This document shows positions 10,333 to 24,041 of a stretch of 30,443 nt of DNA, one piece after another (position 1 is the first letter of the stretch; every line of letters starts with the position of its first letter). The stretch covers positions 1-30,443 of IMG/VR virus record IMGVR_UViG_3300020418_000025; one strand, 5' to 3'. Position numbers and translations under genes: made by a program. The stretch comes from a virus. A model generated the notes under the pieces. The model ran no database searches, had not been told where the DNA came from, and saw nothing but the letters and a program-made list of their open reading frames with translations.

Positions 10333-10891
10333 ACCATATGTAGTTATACCAAACGTTGTTCCAGAAAAATTGTGTGATGAAATGGTTAAAGAATCAAAAC
10401 ATTACAGTGAACAATTAGCTGGAGTTATGTGGAAAGACAAACCGGATTTAAAAAAAGATAGAAACTCTAATATTAGATTTTATCCTCTTGACCATTGGAT
10501 TGTTCCCAAACTTTGTGATCTGGCTAATACTGTAAATGACGAGCATTATAATTTTAAAATTACTAATTTACAGTGTCCTCAATTTACTGAGTACAAAAAA
10601 GGACAACACTACAAATGGCATAGAGATATTTACCCGCCTGAAAAAGACGGCCCCTATCCCGGATTAGTTAGAAAGTTATCAATGTGTATTCAGCTGTCTA
10701 ACTTTGAAGATTATAAGGGCGGTAATTTTTTTATAAAAGATTTTAACAACAAACAACACAAACCAGAAGAGTTTAAAAACAAAGGAGACTTGTTAGTCTT
10801 CCCTTCATTTTTACTTCATCAAGTAACAGAAGTAAAAGGAGGTAAACGATATAGTCTTGTGTGCTGGTTTATGGGGCCACCATTTCAATAA
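10325..10891 (+). CDS. 2-oxoglutarate/Fe(II)-dependent oxygenase, prolyl-4-hydroxylase type
   Basis: Non-haem iron dioxygenase of the double-stranded beta-helix fold. The metal triad is His99 and Asp101 in YKWHRD and His165 in FLLHQV; Arg175 (GGKRYSLV), ten residues after the last His, would bind 2-oxoglutarate. 188 residues, a normal length. Such enzymes are frequent in marine phages; their substrates are mostly unknown, with protein side chains or nucleic acids proposed. ATG 10325 lies within the end of nrdJ. It overlaps the cupin gene by 31 bases, so the two may be co-translated. Confidence 0.9.
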   Translation: MYKPYVVIPNVVPEKLCDEMVKESKHYSEQLAGVMWKDKPDLKKDRNSNIRFYPLDHWIVPKLCDLANTVNDEHYNFKITNLQCPQFTEYKKGQHYKWHRDIYPPEKDGPYPGLVRKLSMCIQLSNFEDYKGGNFFIKDFNNKQHKPEEFKNKGDLLVFPSFLLHQVTEVKGGKRYSLVCWFMGPPFQ

Positions 10892-11238
10892 AAAATATAG
10901 TTAGCCGACCTTGGGGACATTATCGAGTATTAAAATCCACTCCAAAGATGGTAGCAAAGATATTACACGTGTATCCAGACAAGGCAATGTCCGTTCAATA
11001 CCATAAATATAGAAATGAGCACTGGAAAATCTTGGAAGGCGAAGCAACGACCCTCATAGATGACCACTGGTGGACACTTACACGTGGTTATAGGGTTTAT
11101 ATCCCCAAAAATACAATTCATTGTGTGCGGGCTTGTAATGGCCATGTACGGATTTTTGAAATTTGGGAGGGTAAAAAACTAGATGAAAACGATATAATAA
11201 GGATAAGTCATGATTATAGTAGTCAGTGGGGGGTTTGA
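10861..11238 (+). CDS. cupin, mannose-6-phosphate isomerase type II-like
   Basis: Resembles the C-terminal isomerase/cupin domain of bifunctional mannose-1-phosphate guanylyltransferase/mannose-6-phosphate isomerase. It has RPWGHYRVL near residue 16, the cupin motif MSVQYHKYRNEHWKILEG with His48 and His54, and VYIPKNTIHCVRA with His87, giving a metal site. A free-standing domain of 125 residues would interconvert sugar phosphates (fructose-6-P and mannose-6-P in the family) or simply bind one. GTG 10861 is the only early standard start, overlapping the oxygenase gene by 31 bases. With the cytidylyltransferase next to it, it points to sugar-nucleotide or glycan chemistry. Confidence 0.8.
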   Translation: MLVYGATISIKNIVSRPWGHYRVLKSTPKMVAKILHVYPDKAMSVQYHKYRNEHWKILEGEATTLIDDHWWTLTRGYRVYIPKNTIHCVRACNGHVRIFEIWEGKKLDENDIIRISHDYSSQWGV

Positions 11239-11635
11239 TCCCCTACATTCTGGACATATAAATATGTTTAAACAAGCTCGCACAATGGGAAGTGTATGGG
11301 CAATAATAAATACTGACAAATGGTTACAAAGAAAGAAAGGTTACAACGTATTATCGTACAGTGAACGATCACTAATTGTTGAATCAAATAAATATATAGA
11401 TAAAATTATTAAAGGAATGGATGACGATGATACAGTTGTAAAAAATTTACAGTGTTTATATAAAGATAAAATTAAATTTGCTTTTGCTAACGGAGGTGAT
11501 CGTATACCCACATCCACACCAGAGATGGATTATTGTTTTGAACACAACATTCCGATGCTGTTTAATATAGGTGGGACAAAAACTGAATCATCGTCAAGAA
11601 TTGTTCGTAACTTACTTGACCAGGCCACTAAATAA
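11210..11635 (+). CDS. cytidylyltransferase-like enzyme (nucleotidyltransferase superfamily, HxGH)
   Basis: Compact 141-residue nucleotidyltransferase fold. GGFDPLHSGHINMF gives the HxGH nucleotide-binding motif at His13 and His16. ANGGDR and the late TESSSRIVR correspond to the second CTP/ATP-binding motif (ISSS-type) of glycerol-3-phosphate cytidylyltransferase and RfaE/HldE-like enzymes. It would activate a sugar- or alcohol-phosphate as a CDP or ADP derivative; the substrate cannot be read from sequence. ATG 11210 overlaps the cupin gene by 29 bases. Last gene of the plus-strand operon. Confidence 0.85.
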   Translation: MIIVVSGGFDPLHSGHINMFKQARTMGSVWAIINTDKWLQRKKGYNVLSYSERSLIVESNKYIDKIIKGMDDDDTVVKNLQCLYKDKIKFAFANGGDRIPTSTPEMDYCFEHNIPMLFNIGGTKTESSSRIVRNLLDQATK

Positions 11636-11831: not shown

Positions 11832-11934
11832 AATATTTAACTGGATTTCTATAACCTAATATTCTGTTCTTGTTTCTTGGAAATCTTTCACCACTACAAT
11901 CTCGTAGCCTTAGTATTTCAATCGACCTCTCCAA
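11800..11934 (-). CDS. very small basic ORF with TTG start (44 aa)
   Basis: On the minus strand a TTG at 11934 is preceded by AGGAG at a suitable distance and overlaps the stop of the secreted-protein gene upstream. The product includes SIEILRLRDCSGERFPRNK and GYRNPVKYYGKKITKSRI, a credible mixed sequence with a basic end. It overlaps the 39-aa ORF by 32 bases. No known family. The ribosome binding site makes it slightly more convincing than its neighbour, despite the rare start codon. Confidence 0.4.
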   Translation of the reverse strand: MERSIEILRLRDCSGERFPRNKNRILGYRNPVKYYGKKITKSRI

Positions 11935-12218
11935 TCTCTTTTGTCTCCTCTTGGACTTTGTATTTGTTTTTCACAAGCAAAATCACTATGCGTTGTTATA
12001 ACCATAGTATCCTTATCTGTGCATGTATAAAAGCATTTGACAGAGTCTTCTCCAAAAAAAGGTTTGACTATCTGTTCTTTGGTTAATCTGCAAGTTACGT
12101 TATATTGATTGAGTTGATCGTATAGTCTACCGTTGGTAGCTACAACCGGATCGCAAAATGAAAGAAGTAAAGGGAGCACTAAAGCTCCCACTACTATATT
12201 ATTTTTCTGCACATGCAT
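11910..12218 (-). CDS. secreted Cys-containing small protein
   Basis: From ATG 12218 the 102-residue product starts with a classic signal peptide: a Lys near the start, a hydrophobic core (VVGALVLPLLLSF) and a PVVA cleavage site. The Cys in LSFC does not fit a lipobox because Phe precedes it. The mature part has four cysteines (VTCR, VKCFYTC, DFAC), which could form two disulfides in the periplasm, and a basic end. Position after holin suggests a lysis or envelope role, for example spanin-like or superinfection-related, but no homologous family is recognised. A TTG 15 bases upstream is less likely as the start. The signal-peptide region also encodes an RNA hairpin. Confidence 0.65.
   Translation of the reverse strand: MHVQKNNIVVGALVLPLLLSFCDPVVATNGRLYDQLNQYNVTCRLTKEQIVKPFFGEDSVKCFYTCTDKDTMVITTHSDFACEKQIQSPRGDKRDWRGRLKY
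12172..12189 (-). terminator. terminator/attenuator-like hairpin inside the signal-peptide coding region
   Basis: Read on the minus strand, GGGAGC TTTAGT GCTCCC is a 6-bp GC-rich stem with a 6-base loop, followed by the pyrimidine-rich TTTACTTCTTTCATTTT. It begins ten bases after the pqqA-like stop codon. It has the form of an intrinsic terminator with an interrupted U-tract, and could lower expression of the genes further on relative to pqqA. It also encodes the core of the signal peptide. Confidence 0.45.
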
Positions 12219-12273
12219 AGCTATTGATCTCAAGACCGACTGCTATTTCTGTGATAATTGGTTTAGACCACAT
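12199..12273 (-). CDS. pqqA: PQQ precursor peptide PqqA
   Basis: A 24-codon gene on the minus strand. The peptide starts MWSKP and contains GLEINSYACAE. Glu15 and Tyr19 sit at exactly the positions used in Klebsiella PqqA, where PqqE joins the two side chains to begin pyrroloquinoline quinone synthesis. The MW-x-KP start, Gly13 and the ExxxY core match the family along its length. ATG 12273 is chosen because GGAG lies seven bases upstream; an in-frame ATG at 12285 would add four residues. It follows the holin gene and overlaps the secreted-protein gene by 20 bases. No pqqB, C, D or E is in the window, so maturation would depend on the host. Confidence 0.85.
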   Translation of the reverse strand: MWSKPIITEIAVGLEINSYACAEK

Positions 12274-12291
12274 AGTCAACTCCATTTGTTA

Positions 12292-12303
12292 TTTGTTAAC
12301 AAA
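12292..12303. promoter_or_regulatory. 12-bp palindrome upstream of pqqA
   Basis: TTTGTTAACAAA is a perfect palindrome located 19 bases before the chosen pqqA start, in the 75-base gap after the holin gene. A second TTTGTT half-site lies beside it. It might be an operator or a processing site; there is no direct evidence of function. Confidence 0.25.
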
Positions 12304-12348
12304 GTGCTGGTTGCCGTTGAAAGGCCGCAGTCCACTGATCTTTATATA

Positions 12349-12759
12349 TTACTTCCTCATGTTCTCTCTTGCAACCCCTTTTGATTTTTCCCAACTACGG
12401 AGTCCACCCATTCCGAGTAATGCAATGGTTAGAGAAATAAGTTCACCTGTGTCCACAAAGTTTGGCATATTTATTTCTGGTGCAAACAAAGCTGTGAACC
12501 AAGTCATTAGTGGTAAGATAAAGAAGTTTACAAATAAACCGATTGCACACACCCACATGATTGCAGGTCTTGCACCAGCTACAAACATACTTGGATGTTT
12601 AGCTGCTTCGGTGTTAGCTTTAGCCTGTTCTTTCGCCAGAGCATTCGCATGTTTTTCAGACATGGTAGCTATGTCGTGAGCCAGACGTGCCTTTTGGTCT
12701 TTGTCTTCTATGAATTTATCAAGTAGCCCAGTGACCGGACCTATAAGTGCTGTTAACAT
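12349..12759 (-). CDS. holin of the 3TM type (GTA-holin-like)
   Basis: Inner-membrane pore former that times lysis. The 136 residues begin with an amphipathic helix and a charged coiled-coil region rich in Ala, Lys and Gln (about 15-55), followed by HPSMFVAGARPAIMWVCAIG and hydrophobic helices at about 66-92 and 106-120. It ends with LLGMGGLRSWEKSKG, the conserved C-terminal GLRSxEK pattern of the 3TM holin family. The ATG shares a base with the upstream stop. No endolysin is recognisable next to it. Confidence 0.88.
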   Translation of the reverse strand: MLTALIGPVTGLLDKFIEDKDQKARLAHDIATMSEKHANALAKEQAKANTEAAKHPSMFVAGARPAIMWVCAIGLFVNFFILPLMTWFTALFAPEINMPNFVDTGELISLTIALLGMGGLRSWEKSKGVARENMRK

Positions 12760-13082: not shown

Positions 13083-13983
13083 TATTAATTAAATGTTTGT
13101 AAGGTAATCCATGTGCCATCTCTGTTATTGTCCACTGTGTGTATGCAATATCATTAAATAATTGTTGACGATCTTCCATCTTTGGATCTTCTACATCTTC
13201 AATGGAATGGGATGATATTGGATAAGCAAAGTTAAGATTACTAGGTGTAATAACAGGGATACCAGCAAGGAGACTATCCACAGCCCCTCCACTTGTAAAC
13301 GAAACTGTAGCCCAACAATCTTCCAAATCCATCGCAATCGGATTTTTATGTCCGAACACCATGCTGACATCTTTTTGTTTTTCCACAAACTCTTCAAATT
13401 TAGATAGGTCATAAGATGATATTAACGGATGCATACGAACTCTAACAGGCCTGTCAGATATTTTTTTACATTTAACTATCTCATCCTGTAACCATTTAAG
13501 TATGTCAACATTAGCTGTTGCCGCATCTCCAGGCAACTGCATAAGAAACATTATATGTTTACCATCTTTTCTCCAATCTTTTATGTCTAAACCAAGATCG
13601 GTTCGTAGGATACCCCATCTATCTTTGTCAGATTTTTTATTATTAAAATAACCAAGGGTATCCATGTAGTGACCCTTACCAACTCTATAATATCTATGAT
13701 CTTCTGTTATAGTTCGTCCAAGCAATGGTGTTTCAATTACAAGCAAGTCACCTTTATGTTTAGTAACCACATCTTTTTTTAATAAGTGATGTTTTGTGTG
13801 TCTATCTTTCCACGATCCAAATATAACGGCTATATCACAATCCATATATTTAGTTGAGTTAGATAAGAACACAAGGTTATCTGTTGTCTCTCTAATACCA
13901 TGAGTCATAGCTGTCAGTGTATTAATATGTGGCTGATGCACAGCTGAATTTAAAAATACTCCTACTACTTTACGGGATGTCAT
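13075..13983 (-). CDS. GT-B-like glycosyltransferase, capsule-polysaccharide type
   Basis: 302 residues. The C-terminal half carries VRMHPLISSYDLSKFEEFV and then the donor-binding-like segment WATVSFTSGGAVDSLLAGIP followed by VITPSN. This resembles KpsS/KpsC-type capsule polysaccharide transferases and related GT-B proteins, in which a Ser/Thr-Gly turn precedes a helix and an A-G-I-P-V strand. The N-terminal half has Rossmann-like alternation (VVGVFLNSAV, DIAVIFGSW). The substrate is unknown. It overlaps the fused glycosyltransferase gene by 14 bases and forms a three-gene glycan module with it and the DxD-type gene upstream. Confidence 0.7.
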   Translation of the reverse strand: MTSRKVVGVFLNSAVHQPHINTLTAMTHGIRETTDNLVFLSNSTKYMDCDIAVIFGSWKDRHTKHHLLKKDVVTKHKGDLLVIETPLLGRTITEDHRYYRVGKGHYMDTLGYFNNKKSDKDRWGILRTDLGLDIKDWRKDGKHIMFLMQLPGDAATANVDILKWLQDEIVKCKKISDRPVRVRMHPLISSYDLSKFEEFVEKQKDVSMVFGHKNPIAMDLEDCWATVSFTSGGAVDSLLAGIPVITPSNLNFAYPISSHSIEDVEDPKMEDRQQLFNDIAYTQWTITEMAHGLPYKHLINND

Positions 13984-15601
13984 CGAAGATCTCCTTGTAT
14001 GTTGTTTTCTCTATCTTATCTTTTAACCCATCGTCCCATAATGCCTTGACCAAACCATCACCATGAACGTGAATATCAAGATCTATTTCTTCTCTTTGCA
14101 TAAGCTTTTCAAAGTCTTGAGCTTGAGCCAGTAATTCACCTGTTGTCCAGTATGGCTTGTTGTCTTCACCAACCGATACCTTCAACCATTTCTTACGACC
14201 GTCTTCAGCTAACTCATCCTTGTTTTCTGGTTCACCTTCAATGCACGAATCAAAACCATATAGATGCATTGTCCTGAACCCAAGTGTATGTAACAAACCT
14301 ATTGACCTCATACCAGCACACGTGCCGCCGGTAATAAGCAGTCTATCTTTAAAAAAGTCCCATCCTTCTATTGCATTACAATAAGCATCCCAAGCTACAA
14401 CCTTTGCTTTCTTATCAAGTAGGTGTGTAACCACATCAGGATTAGACATAGTTGCTACCCAATACATTACTCGTGGATGTGGCTCAGCTAACAATTCTTT
14501 ACGTACATAACCATGTGTAGATTTTTCATTGAAGGGTCTTGGATCTAAAATTGTACATGCCCACGGTTGAATATTATTTTCAAGAAGTGTATTGTGACTG
14601 TGCTTAACACACACAATCCTAACCCCTCTGTTCTGTAGTTGTTGTATTTCTCTAAAACTTTTTTTAAGAGATGGACCAGCCGATACAATAGCTACCTCTT
14701 CATCATTCCACTGACATCGTTTAGTTATAGCCATAGGCATACGTTTGGCATTTGTAAGTATATTCATACGAATATCTTCAATAGGCATACAGTCCTGTGG
14801 TGTTACCACTATAGGTTTTTTATTTGAATCTTCTGTTTTCTTTGCTTTGACTTTTGTGTTTGGTGCTTCTTGGTTAGCTTGTTCTTGTTTAAATTTTAAC
14901 AAACCTTTATTGTGATACATGTACCTAACAAGTGGCGATGCTTCAAATGCATTGAGATCAGCACAGTATGGTGATAGGTTATTAACTTGTAAGCCGTGTG
15001 CTTGATGTAGATTCATGATTCTAGTAAACACAAAAGCATCGTGCCATTCTTTATAATTATAAATTTCACCAGAGTCCCACACTCCAAATAAATCTGCAAA
15101 CAAAGCTTTATTAAGTTCTGTCATCTGCATCATAACAAAACCAGCTTCTATATAATTTACTGCCTCACGTCCAAGCACGGCTATATCTTTATCTTTAGGC
15201 ATCCACTCTTCAAGTTTAGCTTTTGGTATGTCGTTGTATGTTACGGTATCAGCATCAATCCATATACCCACATCACACTTTGGTGGATTTTTTACAAAGA
15301 ACTCATATTCAGTGTAGACTTTGTATGCCCATCGTTTAACATCTGTTCTCCAGTTTGGTGTATCCTTTGGGCTTTTGTACCTTTTAAAAAACTCGCACAG
15401 TTCTTGAGAAGCACCCATTAGATCTATGAACTCTACTCTTTTGGGATCGTACGATTGAAGACCACGTTCAGGCCAATCGTTGTAATAAGCATAGAGTTTC
15501 GTGTCTTCAGGCCAGTGTTTAATAAAACTTTCTATACAATCTTTGGCATAAAGATTCCAGTGATCGCCTCGGAACGATGTTACAAGTGAAAATGTAGGCA
15601 T
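13970..15601 (-). CDS. fusion of GT-A glycosyltransferase and DUF115/MptE-like domain
   Basis: 543 residues in two parts. Residues 1-230 look like a GT-A glycosyltransferase: an FSLVTSFRGDHW start, WAYKVY, and the metal-binding DxD at Asp116 and Asp118 (IWIDADTV). Residues 232-295 are a Lys/Glu-rich linker. From about 301 the protein matches the DUF115/6-hydroxymethylpterin pyrophosphokinase MptE-like group: VAIVSAGPSLKKS, VRIVCVKHSHNTLLENNI, CTILDPRP, LLITGGTCAGMRSIGLLHTL and MHLYGFDSC. That domain also occurs in Maf-type flagellin glycosylation proteins. The fusion suggests surface glycosylation. Overlaps both neighbours. Confidence 0.8.
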   Translation of the reverse strand: MPTFSLVTSFRGDHWNLYAKDCIESFIKHWPEDTKLYAYYNDWPERGLQSYDPKRVEFIDLMGASQELCEFFKRYKSPKDTPNWRTDVKRWAYKVYTEYEFFVKNPPKCDVGIWIDADTVTYNDIPKAKLEEWMPKDKDIAVLGREAVNYIEAGFVMMQMTELNKALFADLFGVWDSGEIYNYKEWHDAFVFTRIMNLHQAHGLQVNNLSPYCADLNAFEASPLVRYMYHNKGLLKFKQEQANQEAPNTKVKAKKTEDSNKKPIVVTPQDCMPIEDIRMNILTNAKRMPMAITKRCQWNDEEVAIVSAGPSLKKSFREIQQLQNRGVRIVCVKHSHNTLLENNIQPWACTILDPRPFNEKSTHGYVRKELLAEPHPRVMYWVATMSNPDVVTHLLDKKAKVVAWDAYCNAIEGWDFFKDRLLITGGTCAGMRSIGLLHTLGFRTMHLYGFDSCIEGEPENKDELAEDGRKKWLKVSVGEDNKPYWTTGELLAQAQDFEKLMQREEIDLDIHVHGDGLVKALWDDGLKDKIEKTTYKEIFDDIP

Positions 15602-16368
15602 TTCATGTCCTTTAATGTTGATCCATCTTGATAATCCATGTGAGCCTTTTCAGCAAACCACTTATCTGAAAACTCACAATCACCATAACCTTTCATCCAG
15701 GGTCCACCTAAAGAAAAGTGAACAGCTGATGGTTTGAGTGGAGTGTTCTCTTCCATTATGCCTGGAACATAATTCCATTTTGGGTTTATTTCTCCAACAC
15801 TACTAGGTCCCCGTGATAACCACGCAAACTGATGAAGATCAAGACCTTTCATTTCGTTAACGGCACCTTTTGTTAGTTTCCTATTAGCTTTGTGGTTCAT
15901 ATTAAATGCCATGAGAGACGACCACAATTTACAATTATATTTTGTTTGTATTTTATTATCCATTTTCATACTATTATCAGGCACATAATTAAATTTAACT
16001 GCCATGACAGGATAGTCATCATCAAGTTCGTCAAGTAAATTTTTTACATCATCAAGCCATAAGAAATCACAATCACAAAAAATTACCCATCCTTTTACTT
16101 TGTTACGTCTTGCTAGTTCTGGTATAAGAAAACGAGTATGGCTGAACTCTGTAGAAAAAGGGGCATTGTCTAACACATCCCAGTGTTGACCGTTCTTATC
16201 TATCCGCCACTCTCTATCAAACAAATTAAAACCCCGTAACGAATTATGCATCAAGGGTGTTACAGCTACAGGTATAGATGAACGTCTAACAAGTGAATGT
16301 TCACATACTTGATAAGCATCTATTTCTCTTGAGTCCCAACCGATCGCCACATGAATGTCTTTTACCAT
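15580..16368 (-). CDS. GT-A (GT8-like) glycosyltransferase
   Basis: 262 residues. HVAIGWDSREIDAYQVCEHS at the start is typical of GT8-like phage and bacterial transferases. VIFCDCDFLWL gives the DxD metal site at Asp99 and Asp101, and VHFSLGGPWMKGY near the C-terminus supplies the late His-Gly pair that coordinates the metal in this family. Acceptor unknown. ATG 16368 is clear and the gene overlaps the fusion gene by 22 bases. It is separated from the giant structural gene by only 35 bases. Confidence 0.85.
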   Translation of the reverse strand: MVKDIHVAIGWDSREIDAYQVCEHSLVRRSSIPVAVTPLMHNSLRGFNLFDREWRIDKNGQHWDVLDNAPFSTEFSHTRFLIPELARRNKVKGWVIFCDCDFLWLDDVKNLLDELDDDYPVMAVKFNYVPDNSMKMDNKIQTKYNCKLWSSLMAFNMNHKANRKLTKGAVNEMKGLDLHQFAWLSRGPSSVGEINPKWNYVPGIMEENTPLKPSAVHFSLGGPWMKGYGDCEFSDKWFAEKAHMDYQDGSTLKDMKCLHFHL

Positions 16369-16403: not shown

Positions 16404-19400
16404 TCAATCTGAAAAATACAACTTTCTCATTTCCATACTTTTAGCTCGATCTAGCTTTGGAGTGTATCTTAATGAAGCCTCACTGTTTATTCCAGCTATT
16501 TGTATAGCAAATCTATTTTTTAAAGTTTCAGGCTGAATAATGACAACTTCTTCTGGCGGTCTTCCTTTATTGTATTCAGCTAACTCTCTCACTAATTCTT
16601 CAAACTCTTCTTGATATTTTTGGGACTCAGCCATATCTCCAGAAATTCGAGACCTATAAGATTTAGCTAACTTATCAGTCATCCTTCTAGTAAATGACTC
16701 TCTTAAACCTTTATCTCTAGTACCTAAATATCTTTTTGCTCTTACCAATTCTCTTTCTTTTGCAACTTTAGACGGAGTAAAACCTATAGCTTTAAATCCA
16801 ACGTCGATTGGGGTTAAATCTTCAGGAGCCACGATCGTTCTTCCTGTCCCTGCCTTAACACCCTCTGAAACATAATAAAAAGAATCAATAAAATTTCTTA
16901 TTCCTAGTGGGGCTAAATTAAAAGCAGCTCGGACAGGCTTATCATTTTTTATATCGTCTTTAATATTTGTAATAGTGTCACCAACTAAAGATCCAAATGG
17001 TCCTAACAACCAAGACAATTCGTTATTAAGAACATCAATACCTAAAGGATTTCCAAAAGCTGCACGTTGACTTAAATCTACTCCCATTTGACGAGGCAGT
17101 CCTCTTAATAAAGTGTCGGTCATACCGGTGCCAATAGACTCTTGTAGTAATTCTCTAAAAACTATTTCTACATCAATCTCTCTATCTGTAAAAAATTTAG
17201 AAATTCTTTTAAACATTTCTCTAAAAGTATCTGCAAATGGTAAACCCAATAACCCACCAAACATAACTACTGTTCCTAATGTTCCGAGCATTATATTCAT
17301 AGCTAATTTTCTTGTGAGAGGATCAGCTTCTTTGCTCAAAGCAGTGCCTCCAAGTATAAATATCCTTTCAATATACTGACCAACAAATGTTAAAAACTGT
17401 GTAGTTAAAACACCAACAGGTCCAAAAAATCCTGTAGCCCTAGCAATAGTCGGCCTGTTTTCTTTACCCATCAAAAACTGTGTATCAAACACCATCATCT
17501 CTCCGGCCATTTCTTTGGTGACGTTTTCAACATTTTTATATTTAGTGCCTTGCTTATGAATGTCCAAATTTTTTCTAAATCTAGGACTGTCTCTGTGCAA
17601 CCTATAACCAGCTAATGCTGTAGAAATTCTATTTAATTGTTCAACTCCTCCAAATAAAGCACCAGCCCAGTTAACTGTATTCCTAAAAGCTTTTATTGCT
17701 GGAGCACCAAAACCACTTCGAGACAACTGACTTTCCATTTCAATATCAAAACGAGCACCCGCATCTATGTTTCTAATTGGTGTAACTATACCTTTAGCAA
17801 ACAAACCACGTAAATATTCTTTTTCATCAGCTGTTAAAAAATCAGCATCTTTTATTTTGTCTGGATTGTAAAAATATTCATCTACATCTTTTACTTTACT
17901 TAATTTAAAAGCATCTGCCGAAGCTTTTATTAAAGCTTTTACACCTCTGACCCCATCTAATGTAGCCAATGTAGGGGCCGTAACCTGTGGTATTTGTGTT
18001 AAATTTAAAAGAGCTGATGACGGGTTAAACCCTAAATAACTGGTAAATGAAATAGCTTTTAATAATCTTAATTCATCTGACGGACTTCTCACATAATCAA
18101 CCTGTTCTTTCATGTACTCTATAAACTGTTTTGATATTTGTTTTGTATTAGCCACAGATTCTAAGTAACTTAGTGTACCGTTAATTGCAGGAGCTGACTG
18201 AACAGAAGCAGCAAAGGTTGACCCTGATTGTAAATACTGTAGTAAAGCTTCTCTATGATATGTTTGTTGATTTCTTGCATTAATAAAACCTGTAATATTT
18301 TCATCAGCCCTAGTTCTAACAAATCTTAAAAATCCTTTTTCAGTTGTCTTTTTTTTCATGTTTGATATTATTCCCGACAATTCAGATTGCAGTTCTGGAT
18401 TAGTTGAATAATATTCCACTTGCTCCATTATAGATAACTCTTTTAAAAATTCTTGTTTTGCGGTTTGTCCAGATTTTTTATCATCTTTAATTAAAGTTAA
18501 TTGTTTTATAGAAAAACCTTGGGCTTCTGGAAATTTTCTTTGAAGCTGTTCTAAAAGTTGTTTTCTTTTTTCTTTATCAATAGCTGGTCCTCGTTTTTTT
18601 TTCTGCCGAAGTAAAACTTCTTTAGTTTTTCGTGTAACTTTTTTTACTACTGAATCAGGAATTGCTTCAAAATGAATTGTTTTACCATCTTGATCTTTTA
18701 CAATAAAACCCTCAGCTCCAGCTCTAGTTCTTGGAAAGTATCCCGGATGTCTTTCGGTGCTTGCCTGTGTTAGAAGATCAATACCATGTTGTCTTAATCT
18801 GGCTTCTTCTTCTTTACCTTCTCTACGTTTCTCAGCTTGTTGTCTACGTAACTCAGCTATTATTTCTGAATGAGAAAAATTGTTACCCGGATATTTTATA
18901 TCAAGAGAAGCTAAGAAAGCTACCATTGTTTGTTCATAAATTCCGTCTAATGATTCTCTTACACCCTCATATATACTTGCTTCTTCTGGAGTTAAAGTTA
19001 GTTGTTGTTCAAAGTTTATTCCTGAGTCTTCACGACCAGGTATTGGAGGTACACCATCTAACGTCATGCTTCCGTCTTGATTTTTACGAGGTAAAGTTCC
19101 TTGGTAATAATCAGTTACTTCTAGGACTTGAGCAATCTTTTTATAACTTTCAGATCGTGGATCTAATTTTAAAAACGGTTTAGCAAACTTTAAAGCTCTG
19201 TCTTCAATGCTACTAGCTAGCTGTCTTTGACTTTCAAGAGATGACCACAAGATACCAAAAGTATCAGGATATTTTTCAGCTAAAGTTGAGGGGTGTACAA
19301 TATTTCTTTCTATTATAGTTAACTCTTGAAGTTGGTCAGCTAATTCATTTAAAGTTGCATCATCTAAATTCTTAGGATCTTCTAGTCTTTTTACTTTTTC

Positions 19401-22400
19401 TTCAAATTTAAATACCTCTCTCATTAATTTTCTACCCATGTCTACATCAGCTTCTGGTGTTGAGTAACTATGAGAGTGAGCAAACAAAGGATTAGTTATA
19501 TTGTACGGTCTGTCCTTATATATCTCTATCAATTCTTTATCAGTCTTAGCATATTTACCGTACAGAAAATCATCATAAATAGATTCAAAACTATAAAACC
19601 CTTTACCTGTAAACCAGTTTTGTATTTTTTTAAAGAACTCGACGACCTTATCAAATAATTTATTCAACGGACTTTTCGTGTCCATTTTTTGTTTAGCTAT
19701 TTCTTTTAAAAATTTGTAAGCTTCTAACCCATAGGCTCGTGTTTCTTTTGAGTTTTCAAATAAAACATTCTCATCTAACTTTTGGATAGTGGGGTGAGCT
19801 AATCGTTTAGCCTCACGTATTAAGTCTTTTATATTTTCAGTTTGAGTATCTAAGAATTTTATTTCAGGTTGGCTAATCAAACCAATTTCTTCAGCTATGT
19901 GAAATGATTCATGAATAGTAGTATAATCAGCATTACCAAAACCCAAAGCAACTTGAGCCATGTCACCAAAAGTTACACCTCTGACATAGTAACCCGTTTC
20001 ATCAACTCTACCTACTCCAATAACTTCATCAGTTTTTAAGCCCGTAGGAATAAACTGTATTAGTTTATCTGTTCCTAAAAGTTTACGAGTTATGTCTTGA
20101 AGCTCGGTAACAGATTTTTCTATGCGAAGTTTAGCTCCCGGTTTAGCTTCAATTCTAGCTTTTAATTTTGTTAGTGTTTGACCAGTAGCTTTGTTAACAA
20201 TCTGATCTTTTTCAAAACTTTTAAATAATTTATTAACGAGTCTAGTTGCAACCTTTAATTCATTTCCTTCAGGATATACAGTTCGTCCAGCATAAATGCT
20301 TTCATCAAAACCTAACTTGTTTGACATAACTCTTTCTAATAGACGAGCAAAAGATTCAGTCGGTTGTCCATAATACATGTCAGGTGGTTTTATAGCTACA
20401 TCTTGTTTTAAAGATCGTTTATAAAAATCTGATTCCATTATAAATGAATGTAAACTTTCCCAAGCTACTCTGGCATTTTCATTTAAAGTTGATCTAGGTT
20501 TCCACGTTCCGTGAGTTATATATTCTTTGCCGTACATACCAAGTAAATCTATTTGATTAAACAACCAAGGTGATTTTATTTTTGCTGCTTTTGCAGCTTT
20601 AGTTGAAGCCTCCTTGAAATAATCAAAACCTCCAGTTTTTCCAAAATTAACTCCAAGATAATTATCTAAAGCATGTCCAAGTTCATGAACTACTGTCGCC
20701 TCACTAAGTTTTGAAGACACAATACGAGGATCATATTTACCGGCTCTTAATTTTTTGCTGGCTCTATTATACCAACCAATAGTTCCAAGATCACTTGGTT
20801 GAGAAATTGATATAGAAACTTCACCACCCATACTTAAAGCTGTATATTGATCTTTTTTTAAGCCAAATCCTTTAGCTATTTTTTCTAGTAATTTAATTAC
20901 TTCTTCTTCAGACATTACGTTTGAATTAACTTCAGCATATTTAAACCCAAACATTTCTTCTAATTTTTTAGATTCAGGATAATTACCAAATCCTTTATCA
21001 CCCTTACCTTCTTGTGCTGTTAACATTTGAGTAATTATTTCATCATTTATTTTTTCAGCTTTATCTGTTAATTTCTTTTTATCTTCAATTAATGAAGATA
21101 GTGAAGCCTCTCCTTCTTGAGACCCATATAATTTACCTTCTATAATTTCAAATGTCTTCCCATCAGAACCACCTCGATTAGCTAAAAATACGTAACGAGA
21201 ATCTTGAGAATCAAAAGGAATATCAAACACTTCAGCAATTTTAAAGTTAGCTTTATCTAAAGCATTACGTTGTTCAGCAGGAGGTCTAGTAAAAACTAAC
21301 TTGCCGATTTGATTAGAAACTTTACTTGTAGATCCCTTTGGTAATAAAAGATCAGGTGTTGGTTTAAAAACTTGTGTTATTGGTTTTCCTATAACAGTGT
21401 TACCTTGTTTATCTAAAATTAAATCAGTTAGGTTTACAGGAATATCTCTTATTTTTCCTCCTATTCTTCTTGTTGCAAACCCATCATCAATTTCATCTTG
21501 AGTGACATCAATTCTATCTTTGCCTATTTTTATAACTGTTTGAAGTGTATCACTTCTAACTCTAGTCATTTGTTGTTTTGTATCAGGAGTGATTACGGAT
21601 TCTTGTGGTTTCATATTTAACCGTTGCACATCTTCTAATATTTGTGCTTGGTCTTTAGCCGGAGCTTGTTGAAATGTTGGATCATTTAACAACTCCATAA
21701 GTGATTTACCTTTAGCTGTATCTCGTATATATGTTTGATCTTTAATTTTATCAAAAGCATTTTTCAGACCTGTATTCATATATTTTTTTTGAATTTGGCT
21801 TTTAGCTACTTCAAGTATTCTTTCACGAGGAGCTGTGTTTAATAGTTGTAAGTTCGTTTCAGAGGGGTCAATGTTCTTAAAATAATTTTTAGCCCCGTCA
21901 AAAGTTAATGATTCTGTAGAATAAATAGAAAAGTTTTTACCTGTTCTTAATTTAGCTTTATCTATAGCTTTACCTTTTTCTAAAAAATCAACACTGACCG
22001 TTTCGACAATATCTCTGTTACGAAGTGTTAAAAGTTTTTCTTTTAAAGTTTGTTCGGCTTCTTTTGTTGTAAGACCTAACTGACGACTAATATCTTTAAC
22101 TGTAAATTCCTCACCAGACTTTTGGGCAATAGCATTAAAAATATTTTGATCTTGTAAAGAGTCTTTTTCTTTAATTTGTGTTCTAGCTTTTTGACGTATC
22201 TCTTCAAAAATTTTTTTCTGTCTTAACCTATCTTTATTAGCCTCCCTAATTAAATCAGGAGAAGATAAATTAGCCGCCTCTGCAAATTTATTCTTTGGAG
22301 TTATAGCACCTATTTCTTCTTTTTTTTGGCCTGGTATAGTATCAAAAGAATTTGTTAAGACATATTGAGCTTCTTCAGCATCTTGAACAGGCAGCCCTAA

Positions 22401-24041
22401 TCGTGTACGTCTGTCATAATCTTGTTTCTTTTTTTCTTTTTCTAAGTTAGCTTGTAAAGCTTCAATCTGTTCCTTTGGAGCATTTTCATCTTGAGCTGTA
22501 ATTAAATCATTAGCAGCCTTTTTTACGTCTTCACTGTCATACGTTGCATCAGGATCAGAAGATAATTCATTTATAATTCTATCAGGAGTTATTTTTTTAG
22601 TAGTAGAATATCCTTCACTAGGCATTACTTCAACTTCTCTTATTGTATCTCCGTCAGATTTATTAATTCCTCCCGGTACGACAAAACCTTGTATTCTACG
22701 ACCATCATCATCAAGAAATGTTATTGTTTGATTCTCAGCTAATTTAGCTGGAGTCTTTTGATTATTTATTTCTTGTTTTCTTTTTTTATCAGCTTCATCT
22801 TTAGCTAATCTTTTTTTCTTCTCAGCACTAGAGTCTAAATAACCACCAACTGTCCCAGCACCAGCACCAAAGAAACCACCGGCAACCATGCCAGCAACAC
22901 CAGCACTTAATAAGTGTTCTTTTAGTTCAGATAAACTTCTTGGTTCTCTACCCAAAGCTACATCAGTACCGATAGCATTTAACATCTCTTGACCAGCTTC
23001 AGTAATACCCTCTGCTACAGCACCAACACCAGCAGCTTTAGCACCTCTTTTAGCTATAGTTTTTATAGTGGACTGACCCACAGCTTCTAGGGCTTTATCA
23101 ACAGCTTTTTCGTCAGCTCCTGTTACCTTTGAAAATTCTTTTTTTGTAGCTTTCTCGCCGAACTTTTTTATAAATGGTTTTAAGACAGGAGCAAAAGCAA
23201 TAAGAGTTCCTACCTGTTCTAAAGCACCTTGACCAGCTCCAAACAATAGTTCGGTTCCGGCACTTCCAGTATCGGTGTCTGGTAAACCCTGTGCCCTTAA
23301 TTCATCTTTTACTGATTCTCTAACAGCACCAGTTCCCAATATTGATGATCCTATAAAACCAGTTATAGCTCCTGTAGCTAAAGCTGATAAACCAAGAAGA
23401 GGAGCAGCTGCGGCTCCGGCTACGGTTAAACCAAGAATACCAGCTGTGCTCGGTAACGTCTCACCTATAATAGCTTTTACAGAATCATAAGCATCTCCTA
23501 AACCTTCAGCCTCAAGTAAATCTTTACTTGCTAACGGTTTATTCATTTGTTGTCTACGTTGTTGTCCAGCTTTACGATCTAAATATTCGGAAGCATTTTC
23601 AAATCCAAGAAGTTCAGCTGATGATGCTGCCCAACTTAAAGGCAACATTTGTAAGGTATCAATACCACGATCAAAAGCTCTTTTAAAACCTTTCTTTGGT
23701 TCTAAAGGTTTCTCATATATTTCTGGATAATCTTCTCTTAGCTTAGCTTCTATTTCTTCATCGGGAGTTTTAATATCAAACTCAAGCTTTGTTTGATCTT
23801 TAAGAGTTATTGTTTTTTTCTTTGGAAGAATATCAGCATATTTTTCTTTTATGTCTGCATCTATCTCTGCATCTGACATCGTTCCCGGATAAGAGACAAC
23901 CTCACCGTTAGGTAATTCAAATCTTTTGTCTTTTACTTCTGGTTGTGGATTTAAAAAGTTTTGAAGATCAGCTACTGATAAGTTAGGGTTAGTGAAATCA
24001 ATGCCGGGATTAGCTGCTCTTGAAAAAATATCTTGAGCCAT
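16404..24041 (-). CDS. giant virion-associated protein with two zincin metallopeptidase motifs
   Basis: 2545 residues, a quarter of the window. Such phage proteins are usually carried in the virion and ejected with DNA. The N-terminal part is Ala/Gly-rich and hydrophobic (TAGILGLTVAGAAAAPLLG near 200, VAGMVAGGFFGAG near 385). The middle is charged and coiled. Two peptidase motifs follow: HELGH at 1119-1123 (VVHELGHALDNYLG), with ESFARLLERVM as possible third ligand, and HESFH at 1377-1381, with ETRAYGLEAY. The C-terminal third has hydrophobic stretches (MLGTLGTVVMFGGLLGLPFAD) and resembles large polyvalent (LPD, PLxRFG-type) proteins. I find no RNA polymerase motifs. Two bases separate it from the 872-aa gene. 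Confidence 0.8.
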   Translation of the reverse strand: MAQDIFSRAANPGIDFTNPNLSVADLQNFLNPQPEVKDKRFELPNGEVVSYPGTMSDAEIDADIKEKYADILPKKKTITLKDQTKLEFDIKTPDEEIEAKLREDYPEIYEKPLEPKKGFKRAFDRGIDTLQMLPLSWAASSAELLGFENASEYLDRKAGQQRRQQMNKPLASKDLLEAEGLGDAYDSVKAIIGETLPSTAGILGLTVAGAAAAPLLGLSALATGAITGFIGSSILGTGAVRESVKDELRAQGLPDTDTGSAGTELLFGAGQGALEQVGTLIAFAPVLKPFIKKFGEKATKKEFSKVTGADEKAVDKALEAVGQSTIKTIAKRGAKAAGVGAVAEGITEAGQEMLNAIGTDVALGREPRSLSELKEHLLSAGVAGMVAGGFFGAGAGTVGGYLDSSAEKKKRLAKDEADKKRKQEINNQKTPAKLAENQTITFLDDDGRRIQGFVVPGGINKSDGDTIREVEVMPSEGYSTTKKITPDRIINELSSDPDATYDSEDVKKAANDLITAQDENAPKEQIEALQANLEKEKKKQDYDRRTRLGLPVQDAEEAQYVLTNSFDTIPGQKKEEIGAITPKNKFAEAANLSSPDLIREANKDRLRQKKIFEEIRQKARTQIKEKDSLQDQNIFNAIAQKSGEEFTVKDISRQLGLTTKEAEQTLKEKLLTLRNRDIVETVSVDFLEKGKAIDKAKLRTGKNFSIYSTESLTFDGAKNYFKNIDPSETNLQLLNTAPRERILEVAKSQIQKKYMNTGLKNAFDKIKDQTYIRDTAKGKSLMELLNDPTFQQAPAKDQAQILEDVQRLNMKPQESVITPDTKQQMTRVRSDTLQTVIKIGKDRIDVTQDEIDDGFATRRIGGKIRDIPVNLTDLILDKQGNTVIGKPITQVFKPTPDLLLPKGSTSKVSNQIGKLVFTRPPAEQRNALDKANFKIAEVFDIPFDSQDSRYVFLANRGGSDGKTFEIIEGKLYGSQEGEASLSSLIEDKKKLTDKAEKINDEIITQMLTAQEGKGDKGFGNYPESKKLEEMFGFKYAEVNSNVMSEEEVIKLLEKIAKGFGLKKDQYTALSMGGEVSISISQPSDLGTIGWYNRASKKLRAGKYDPRIVSSKLSEATVVHELGHALDNYLGVNFGKTGGFDYFKEASTKAAKAAKIKSPWLFNQIDLLGMYGKEYITHGTWKPRSTLNENARVAWESLHSFIMESDFYKRSLKQDVAIKPPDMYYGQPTESFARLLERVMSNKLGFDESIYAGRTVYPEGNELKVATRLVNKLFKSFEKDQIVNKATGQTLTKLKARIEAKPGAKLRIEKSVTELQDITRKLLGTDKLIQFIPTGLKTDEVIGVGRVDETGYYVRGVTFGDMAQVALGFGNADYTTIHESFHIAEEIGLISQPEIKFLDTQTENIKDLIREAKRLAHPTIQKLDENVLFENSKETRAYGLEAYKFLKEIAKQKMDTKSPLNKLFDKVVEFFKKIQNWFTGKGFYSFESIYDDFLYGKYAKTDKELIEIYKDRPYNITNPLFAHSHSYSTPEADVDMGRKLMREVFKFEEKVKRLEDPKNLDDATLNELADQLQELTIIERNIVHPSTLAEKYPDTFGILWSSLESQRQLASSIEDRALKFAKPFLKLDPRSESYKKIAQVLEVTDYYQGTLPRKNQDGSMTLDGVPPIPGREDSGINFEQQLTLTPEEASIYEGVRESLDGIYEQTMVAFLASLDIKYPGNNFSHSEIIAELRRQQAEKRREGKEEEARLRQHGIDLLTQASTERHPGYFPRTRAGAEGFIVKDQDGKTIHFEAIPDSVVKKVTRKTKEVLLRQKKKRGPAIDKEKRKQLLEQLQRKFPEAQGFSIKQLTLIKDDKKSGQTAKQEFLKELSIMEQVEYYSTNPELQSELSGIISNMKKKTTEKGFLRFVRTRADENITGFINARNQQTYHREALLQYLQSGSTFAASVQSAPAINGTLSYLESVANTKQISKQFIEYMKEQVDYVRSPSDELRLLKAISFTSYLGFNPSSALLNLTQIPQVTAPTLATLDGVRGVKALIKASADAFKLSKVKDVDEYFYNPDKIKDADFLTADEKEYLRGLFAKGIVTPIRNIDAGARFDIEMESQLSRSGFGAPAIKAFRNTVNWAGALFGGVEQLNRISTALAGYRLHRDSPRFRKNLDIHKQGTKYKNVENVTKEMAGEMMVFDTQFLMGKENRPTIARATGFFGPVGVLTTQFLTFVGQYIERIFILGGTALSKEADPLTRKLAMNIMLGTLGTVVMFGGLLGLPFADTFREMFKRISKFFTDREIDVEIVFRELLQESIGTGMTDTLLRGLPRQMGVDLSQRAAFGNPLGIDVLNNELSWLLGPFGSLVGDTITNIKDDIKNDKPVRAAFNLAPLGIRNFIDSFYYVSEGVKAGTGRTIVAPEDLTPIDVGFKAIGFTPSKVAKERELVRAKRYLGTRDKGLRESFTRRMTDKLAKSYRSRISGDMAESQKYQEEFEELVRELAEYNKGRPPEEVVIIQPETLKNRFAIQIAGINSEASLRYTPKLDRAKSMEMRKLYFSD

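Follow-up and report, generated by a model that had tools for sequence, protein, structure and literature searches.

A phage-encoded PQQ precursor peptide and its covarying leader RNA: a candidate auxiliary metabolic gene in a marine virus

The pqqA locus and its surroundings

The window analyzed here comprises all 30,443 nucleotides of the IMG/VR virus record IMGVR_UViG_3300020418_000025 and carries a gene for the PQQ precursor peptide PqqA (pqqA, 12202..12273, minus strand), identified by its open reading frame, by matches to both PqqA profiles and by purifying selection. The product, MWSKPIITEIAVGLEINSYACAEK, is 24 aa long and is read from 12273 to 12202, with the stop codon at 12199–12201; the plus strand of 12199–12273 reads LFFCTCIAIDLK..., and pqqA is encoded on the minus strand only. 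An initial annotation, made from the letters alone, had placed a PqqA reading frame at 12199–12273, after a holin gene and behind a good ribosome binding site. The frame was borne out, with minus as its strand, and Trp2, Lys4, Pro5, Gly13, Glu15 and Tyr19 all carry the residue numbers claimed for them. The ribosome site is GGAG at 12280–12283, 6 nt 5′ of the ATG. A second ATG at 12285 is in frame in the window but out of frame in the relatives L125 and L126, so the MW start is the conserved one.

The peptide scores 36.8 bits against TIGR02107 (cut-off 20, E = 2.4e-9), the profile proposed as a check by the initial annotation, and 33.8 bits against PF08042 (cut-off 21.1, E = 3.3e-8). It is the only PqqA match in the whole record, and PHROGs gave no PqqA match. 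The reading frame is confirmed as a genuine PqqA and not a chance occurrence. It resembles the PqqA of Klebsiella pneumoniae and of Alphaproteobacteria in length, in the MW-x-KP start, in Gly13, in the Glu15-x3-Tyr19 pair and in passing both profiles, and its tail is of the alphaproteobacterial type, as in the PqqA of HIMB59. Unlike cellular pqqA genes, the window copy is phage-encoded, stands without pqqB-E and appears to form its own transcription unit.

Upstream lies the holin gene (12349..12759, minus strand), confirmed by PHROG 3427 (E = 1.8e-30) and Pfam GTA_holin_3TM (E = 9e-15). Immediately after its stop codon, and directly before a leader hairpin (12303..12336, minus strand), is a −10-like box, TATATAAA (12341..12348, minus strand), which is a putative pqqA promoter. 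A hexamer matching TATAAT in at least five of six positions was found 12–25 nt upstream of the leader core in 59 of 65 leaders, against a mean of 23.7 and a maximum of 35 in shuffled controls. Since most leaders directly follow such a box, transcription of pqqA probably starts from a promoter of its own where the holin gene ends. We do not claim that the leader forms the 5′ end of every pqqA mRNA, as several T4-like contexts (L358, L363) are without a −10-like box. Just after the pqqA stop, a terminator-like inverted repeat with a weak T run, GGGAGC-TTTAGT-GCTCCC (12172..12189, minus strand), is kept in relatives though its bases change, and may end the transcript.

The 3′ end of pqqA is overlapped by the start of a gene for a small signal-peptide protein of 102 aa with four conserved Cys (11910..12218, minus strand), for which no Pfam, PHROG or NCBIfam family was found at significance. 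A strict link between this protein and pqqA was rejected: 36 loci have pqqA and nine, with 3 kb on both sides, have none, so the link is only partial.

The window also encodes a primase/helicase, a family A DNA polymerase, a Gp2.5-like ssDNA-binding protein, an endonuclease, a B12-dependent ribonucleotide reductase and a DNA ejection protein, and it is a genuine phage genome, not host contamination. Its general layout is that of the HMO-2011-type marine podoviruses and pelagiphage HTVC103P; its ribonucleotide reductase is closest to that of HMO-2011 (62%) and its DNA polymerase to that of HTVC103P/HTVC104P (44%). Unlike the window phage, HMO-2011 and HTVC103P have no pqqA, which makes the gene dispensable in that wider group. 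Four genes (13970–15601 and 15580–16368, minus strand; 10861–11238 and 11210–11635, plus strand) encode MptE-like/glycosyltransferase-like, mannose-6-phosphate isomerase-type cupin and cytidylyltransferase-like proteins, perhaps for surface-sugar modification. A single virion-type protein of 2545 aa occupies 16404–24041 (minus strand), and its C-terminal part resembles a DarB-like antirestriction PHROG.

Conservation of phage pqqA

For the analysis of selection we took all distinct genes behind the leader that have a 23-codon frame starting with Trp, with no other PqqA motif demanded. All 49 distinct sequences encode PqqA. Trp2, Pro5, Gly13, Glu15 and Tyr19 are invariant in 49/49, with the Glu15 and Tyr19 codons changing synonymously, and Cys21 is invariant as well. 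dN/dS is 0.057 in the pqqA frame and about 1.5 in the two other frames, a very large contrast even though the sequence pairs are not independent, which confirms a protein-coding gene. Synonymous sites are near saturation (pS 0.685).

The peptide is conserved both in phages related to the window and in unrelated phages, and contigs with a holin at least 90% identical mostly keep pqqA at the same place, L128, L129 and L168 being the exceptions. In these and the other holin relatives without pqqA (L131, L132) the site holds unrelated DNA and no decayed ORF. Conservation among related phages and purifying selection on the E-x3-Y pair, both raised by the initial annotation as points on which its reading would stand or fall, are thus observed. 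What it had named as speaking against that reading was not seen: the profile matches, Glu15 and Tyr19 are kept, dN/dS is far from 1, and the frame is not missing from otherwise conserved DNA.

A covarying leader hairpin

The leader upstream of pqqA is a 34-nt hairpin, AGUG-GA-CUG-CG-GCC-(loop)-GGC-AAC-CAG-CACU, recognized by covariation. Its consensus consists of AGUG, a 2-nt bulge, CUG, CG, GNC, a loop of 3–8 nt, GNC, AAC, CAG and CACU. The middle helix covaries among CUG/CAG, CCG/CGG and UCG/CGA, the outer helix among AGUG/CACU, GAAG/CUUC and UGAG/CUCA, and between these short helices the 2 × 3 internal loop CG/AAC is invariant. In the alignment 99.3% of cells are paired and seven of ten pairs change on both sides, values reached by none of 500 shuffles, and in slid controls pairing drops to 26–64%. 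Because some rows of this alignment had been chosen with pairing demanded, we recounted on 37 distinct elements picked solely by the letters GCG(R)NC and AACC; pairing holds in 36–37 of 37 at every position except the outermost (33/37). Minimum free energy folding of the single window leader was uninformative (z = −0.59), whereas covariation was informative.

IMG/VR (2.9 million viral contigs) was searched for the leader without reference to pqqA, using the pattern GTGGRCTGCGRYC...AACCAGCAC. The search returned 91 stretches, 54 of them distinct; pqqA follows 19–32 nt downstream in 53, and in the remaining one the contig end falls inside pqqA. Searching again with the covariant form CCG/CGG yielded 52 distinct matches: 30 are leaders of pqqA, one of them at the end of a contig, and the other 22 are chance matches in GC-rich sequence, nearly all without the outer stem. 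In viruses the leader is found only before pqqA, and every match not due to chance precedes that gene. Both podovirus-like contigs such as the window and contigs that encode a T4-type late-transcription coactivator carry it, so that leader and pqqA behave like a portable cassette.

One copy was found in a cellular genome, the HIMB59 single amplified genome AG-896-A16 (L429/L529; G008:C2:10946-10979), where the leader stands behind a TATAAT box and before rpoH, and where the stretch from hairpin to ribosome site is similar to the phage one. It is absent from the 31 other HIMB59 genomes. Its presence in other Alphaproteobacteria was rejected, as the only extra matches sit inside a coding gene and are due to chance. 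The window pqqA has the leader and the inspected host pqqA copies do not.

Distribution of viral pqqA

At least 120 viral contigs contain the strict pattern MWxKP-x7-GxE-x3-Y, and at least 119 contain GLEIN-x-Y-x-C, the alphaproteobacterial form; the two sets overlap and may include a few cellular contigs (L008 looks cellular). A tblastn search of phage records with the 24-aa window peptide found none, the query being too short for divergent copies; the canonical viral PqqA form identified 12 records. Among cultured methylophages, unannotated pqqA genes lie on the minus strand in Venkman (MT375522, 9977–10045), P19250A (KX815270, 28085–28153), MEP301 (MW452941, 3316–3384), MEP401 (OP830906, 41902–41970) and MEP402 (OP830907, 43050–43118). 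In four Melnitz phages (MZ577095, around 74885–74953, plus strand, is one) pqqA lies under another ORF, annotated as a hypothetical protein. Five cultured-phage copies were scanned and all pass TIGR02107 with 34–41 bits. With unannotated copies in cultured phages and at least 120 contigs matched, viral pqqA is common and mostly missing from annotations; it is found on hundreds of viral contigs, far more than recorded.

That viruses can carry pqqA was known before. The Lake Baikal methylophage population VP_266 was reported in 2020 to have PqqA (PMC7678222), and pqqA, pqqD and pqqE have been reported in reservoir viruses (PMC13188868); PQQ goes unmentioned in the papers about HMO-2011-type phages and about one lineage of OM43 phages. 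VP_266 and the window are alike in that PqqA is carried by a phage predicted to infect a PQQ-needing bacterium, there one with methanol dehydrogenase. VP_266, however, is a single freshwater population of the T4-like kind, interpreted as a methylophage. The window phage is marine and of a different type; its peptide has the alphaproteobacterial form, its host is probably HIMB59, and its conserved leader element also occurs in T4-like phages. New here are the leader, which among viruses is tied to pqqA alone, the wide occurrence of unannotated pqqA in viruses and the probable connection to HIMB59.

In the T4-like phages that have leader and pqqA, further genes encode a quinoprotein-dehydrogenase-associated SoxYZ-like carrier, a homologue scoring just above the TIGR04557 cut-off, and IscA/IscU-type proteins. 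The block of carrier, IscA-type gene, leader with pqqA, and IscU-type gene spans 4417–6333 of L432 and recurs in L575, L514, L597 and relatives. When phage contigs were found by the carrier alone, pqqA lay within 1 kb of it in 12/12 informative cases; in this type of phage IscA- and IscU-type proteins flank pqqA. PqqE, which with PqqD links the Glu and Tyr residues of PqqA, works with three Fe-S clusters (PMC5715301), and the IscA/IscU-type proteins fit such an Fe-S enzyme.

Several other genes were seen near viral pqqA. On a 60-kb contig (L431, about 2–523) the upstream gene encodes a fatty-acid-desaturase-fold protein (PF00487) with an AlkB-like motif, NYLEHYGL, possibly an alkane or lipid hydroxylase. 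Hsp20 and peroxiredoxin genes adjoin pqqA in other phages (upstream in L104 and L454). One phage contig with leader and pqqA (NZMJ01000006; L202/L346) is binned in a MAG labelled Maricaulis.

Likely host

The nearest cellular PqqA found, by eye, is that of HIMB59, MAWTKPMISEISVGLEINSYACAEK, whose 12-residue C-terminus, GLEINSYACAEK, is identical to that of the window peptide; the phage gene would accordingly be a homologue of a host metabolic gene. Two other alphaproteobacterial genomes, with AEV/AEA tails and DNA of 57–58% GC, equal HIMB59 on a profile of the phage peptides. As these GC-rich genomes score equally, host assignment by peptide similarity alone was rejected. GC content is 36.9% in the window, 27–34% in HIMB59 and 53–58% in the other Alphaproteobacteria with an equally close PqqA. 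The four-Cys protein has a single homologue in HIMB59 (27% identity, E = 1.7e-5), encoded some 400 nt downstream of a host pqqA. Taken together, PqqA, GC content, the leader copy and the four-Cys homologue make HIMB59 the likely host. No phage of the window type was found in 32 HIMB59 genomes, and no tRNAs were found for host matching.

In the HIMB59 order, which includes a MAG titled HIMB59-MED-G10, pqqA is present in 31 of 32 genomes with one to four copies each; 22 of the 32 have pqqE and 22 have a PQQ alcohol dehydrogenase, most genomes being incomplete. One copy heads pqqB, pqqC and pqqE, with a putative pqqD between, near genes for a MoxJ-like protein, a cytochrome c, an XoxF-like dehydrogenase and a SoxYZ-like carrier. 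The likely host order, in which the pathway looks complete, has a PQQ alcohol dehydrogenase and also pqqB, pqqC and pqqE, from the pqqB-E set that the initial annotation had suggested looking for in predicted hosts. Outside the operon, every inspected copy forms a unit of its own among unrelated genes and has a terminator-like hairpin behind it, as if supply mattered. Dispersed copies (six examples: L336, L337, L339, L340, L341, L343) encode nearly identical peptides, and upstream of such copies is a shared motif resembling TGAATA-N5-ATCAG...TTAA.

Proposed function

We propose that the window pqqA serves as an auxiliary metabolic gene whose product is extra substrate for the host PQQ pathway, and we put the probability of this reading at roughly three in four. 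The Glu and Tyr of PqqA give all carbons and nitrogens of PQQ, and Klebsiella makes PqqA about 20-fold above PqqC/PqqE (PMC2294125), which marks the peptide as a consumable. The phage would make extra PqqA from its own small unit of promoter-like box, folded leader, ribosome site, pqqA and hairpin. Host PqqD and PqqE would then bind the phage peptide and cross-link Glu15 to Tyr19, and host proteases with PqqB and PqqC would complete PQQ, which in turn would keep a periplasmic PQQ-dependent alcohol dehydrogenase (XoxF/methanol-type), and hence electron flow, active during phage replication. Because one PqqA is used per PQQ, a 24-codon gene would be the cheapest way to lift or maintain cofactor supply while host transcription is shut off. 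No pqqB, pqqC or pqqE was found among 449 viral loci, so the model depends wholly on host enzymes. The host is inferred, and so is everything after translation: processing of the peptide by host enzymes, a higher PQQ level and a gain for the phage. Phage-provided PqqA substrate was also the interpretation of the initial annotation; it is supported here, with more PQQ and more alcohol oxidation as its predicted consequences. The leader, the secreted four-Cys protein and the wide occurrence in phages had escaped that annotation.

Two independent facts argue for the supply role: the SoxYZ-like carrier and Isc neighbors in T4-like phages, and the presence of pqqA in phages isolated on PQQ-dependent methylotrophs. 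The former also bears on the converse proposal that the phage peptide is a decoy, competing with host PqqA for PqqD/PqqE, lowering PQQ and slowing periplasmic oxidation. For a decoy, the leader-binding residues (KP and those after it) would suffice, and the PqqA profile matches agree with one. Glu15 and Tyr19, however, from which PQQ is formed, would be of no use to it, yet they never change in the 49 genes, and a carrier with IscA/IscU company points to support and not to blockade. We consider it improbable.

The position of the window pqqA beside lysis genes would suit another role, in which extra PQQ is released and occupies an outer-membrane importer (PqqU-like) that serves competing phages as receptor; in E. 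coli, a phage that targets PqqU is blocked when PQQ binds this importer (PMC12124388). In T4-like phages, however, pqqA sits with Fe-S and carrier genes and not with lysis genes, and such superinfection exclusion seems very improbable. We give equally little credence to a reading in which a radical SAM enzyme, of the phage or of the host, turns the peptide into something other than PQQ, either a signal or a variant of the cofactor. The YACAEK tail of the peptide is unlike that of Klebsiella and Cys21 is invariant, but host PqqA has the same tail, including the copy beside pqqB-E, and TIGR02107, an equivalog model, is passed with ease. Passive cargo, either a recently acquired functionless host gene or host DNA mis-binned as virus, is strongly disfavored: although IMG/VR has some misassigned contigs such as the cellular-looking L008, the low dN/dS with near-saturated synonymous sites, the place beside holin in several independent contigs, the copies in cultured phage genomes and the gene's own conserved leader all speak against it.

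The intact, strongly conserved pqqA and its leader suggest that phages keep the alcohol-oxidizing enzymes of their hosts supplied during infection. If so, phages of abundant ocean bacteria would manage the cofactor of host alcohol oxidation via a 24-codon gene, and, as annotation pipelines miss a gene of this size, viral influence on the turnover of methanol and other alcohols would be underestimated. The cultured methylophages in collections carry unannotated pqqA, so that the idea is testable with existing strains.

Possible roles of the leader

The leader is a covarying, previously uncatalogued element: Rfam 15 contains no family that matches it up to E = 10. Known cis-regulatory RNAs in Rfam 15 likewise include short structured 5′ elements close upstream of the ribosome site of a metabolic gene, but none of the classes is assignable to a leader with the invariant CG/AAC internal loop. 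Candidate roles are those of a stabilizer, a protein site or a sensor. More tentatively, and with the odds against it, it could belong to a regulatory RNA class not described before and do more than stabilize passively: an RNA that responds to a metabolite, a protein or a state of stress and so adjusts how much PqqA is made, that has been exchanged with a host using it before rpoH, and that travels with pqqA as a cassette between unrelated phages of the window type and the T4-like type. As a candidate new RNA element it can be tested on more than 80 natural variants. In other phage contexts (L488, L492, L505, L458, L481, L363, L516, L454 and L475) a second hairpin, with the sequence GGTGAGTTCCTAGTAACAGAATACTCACC or one close to it and with CCTRGNAACAGAA in its loop, precedes pqqA, the first leader being present or absent.
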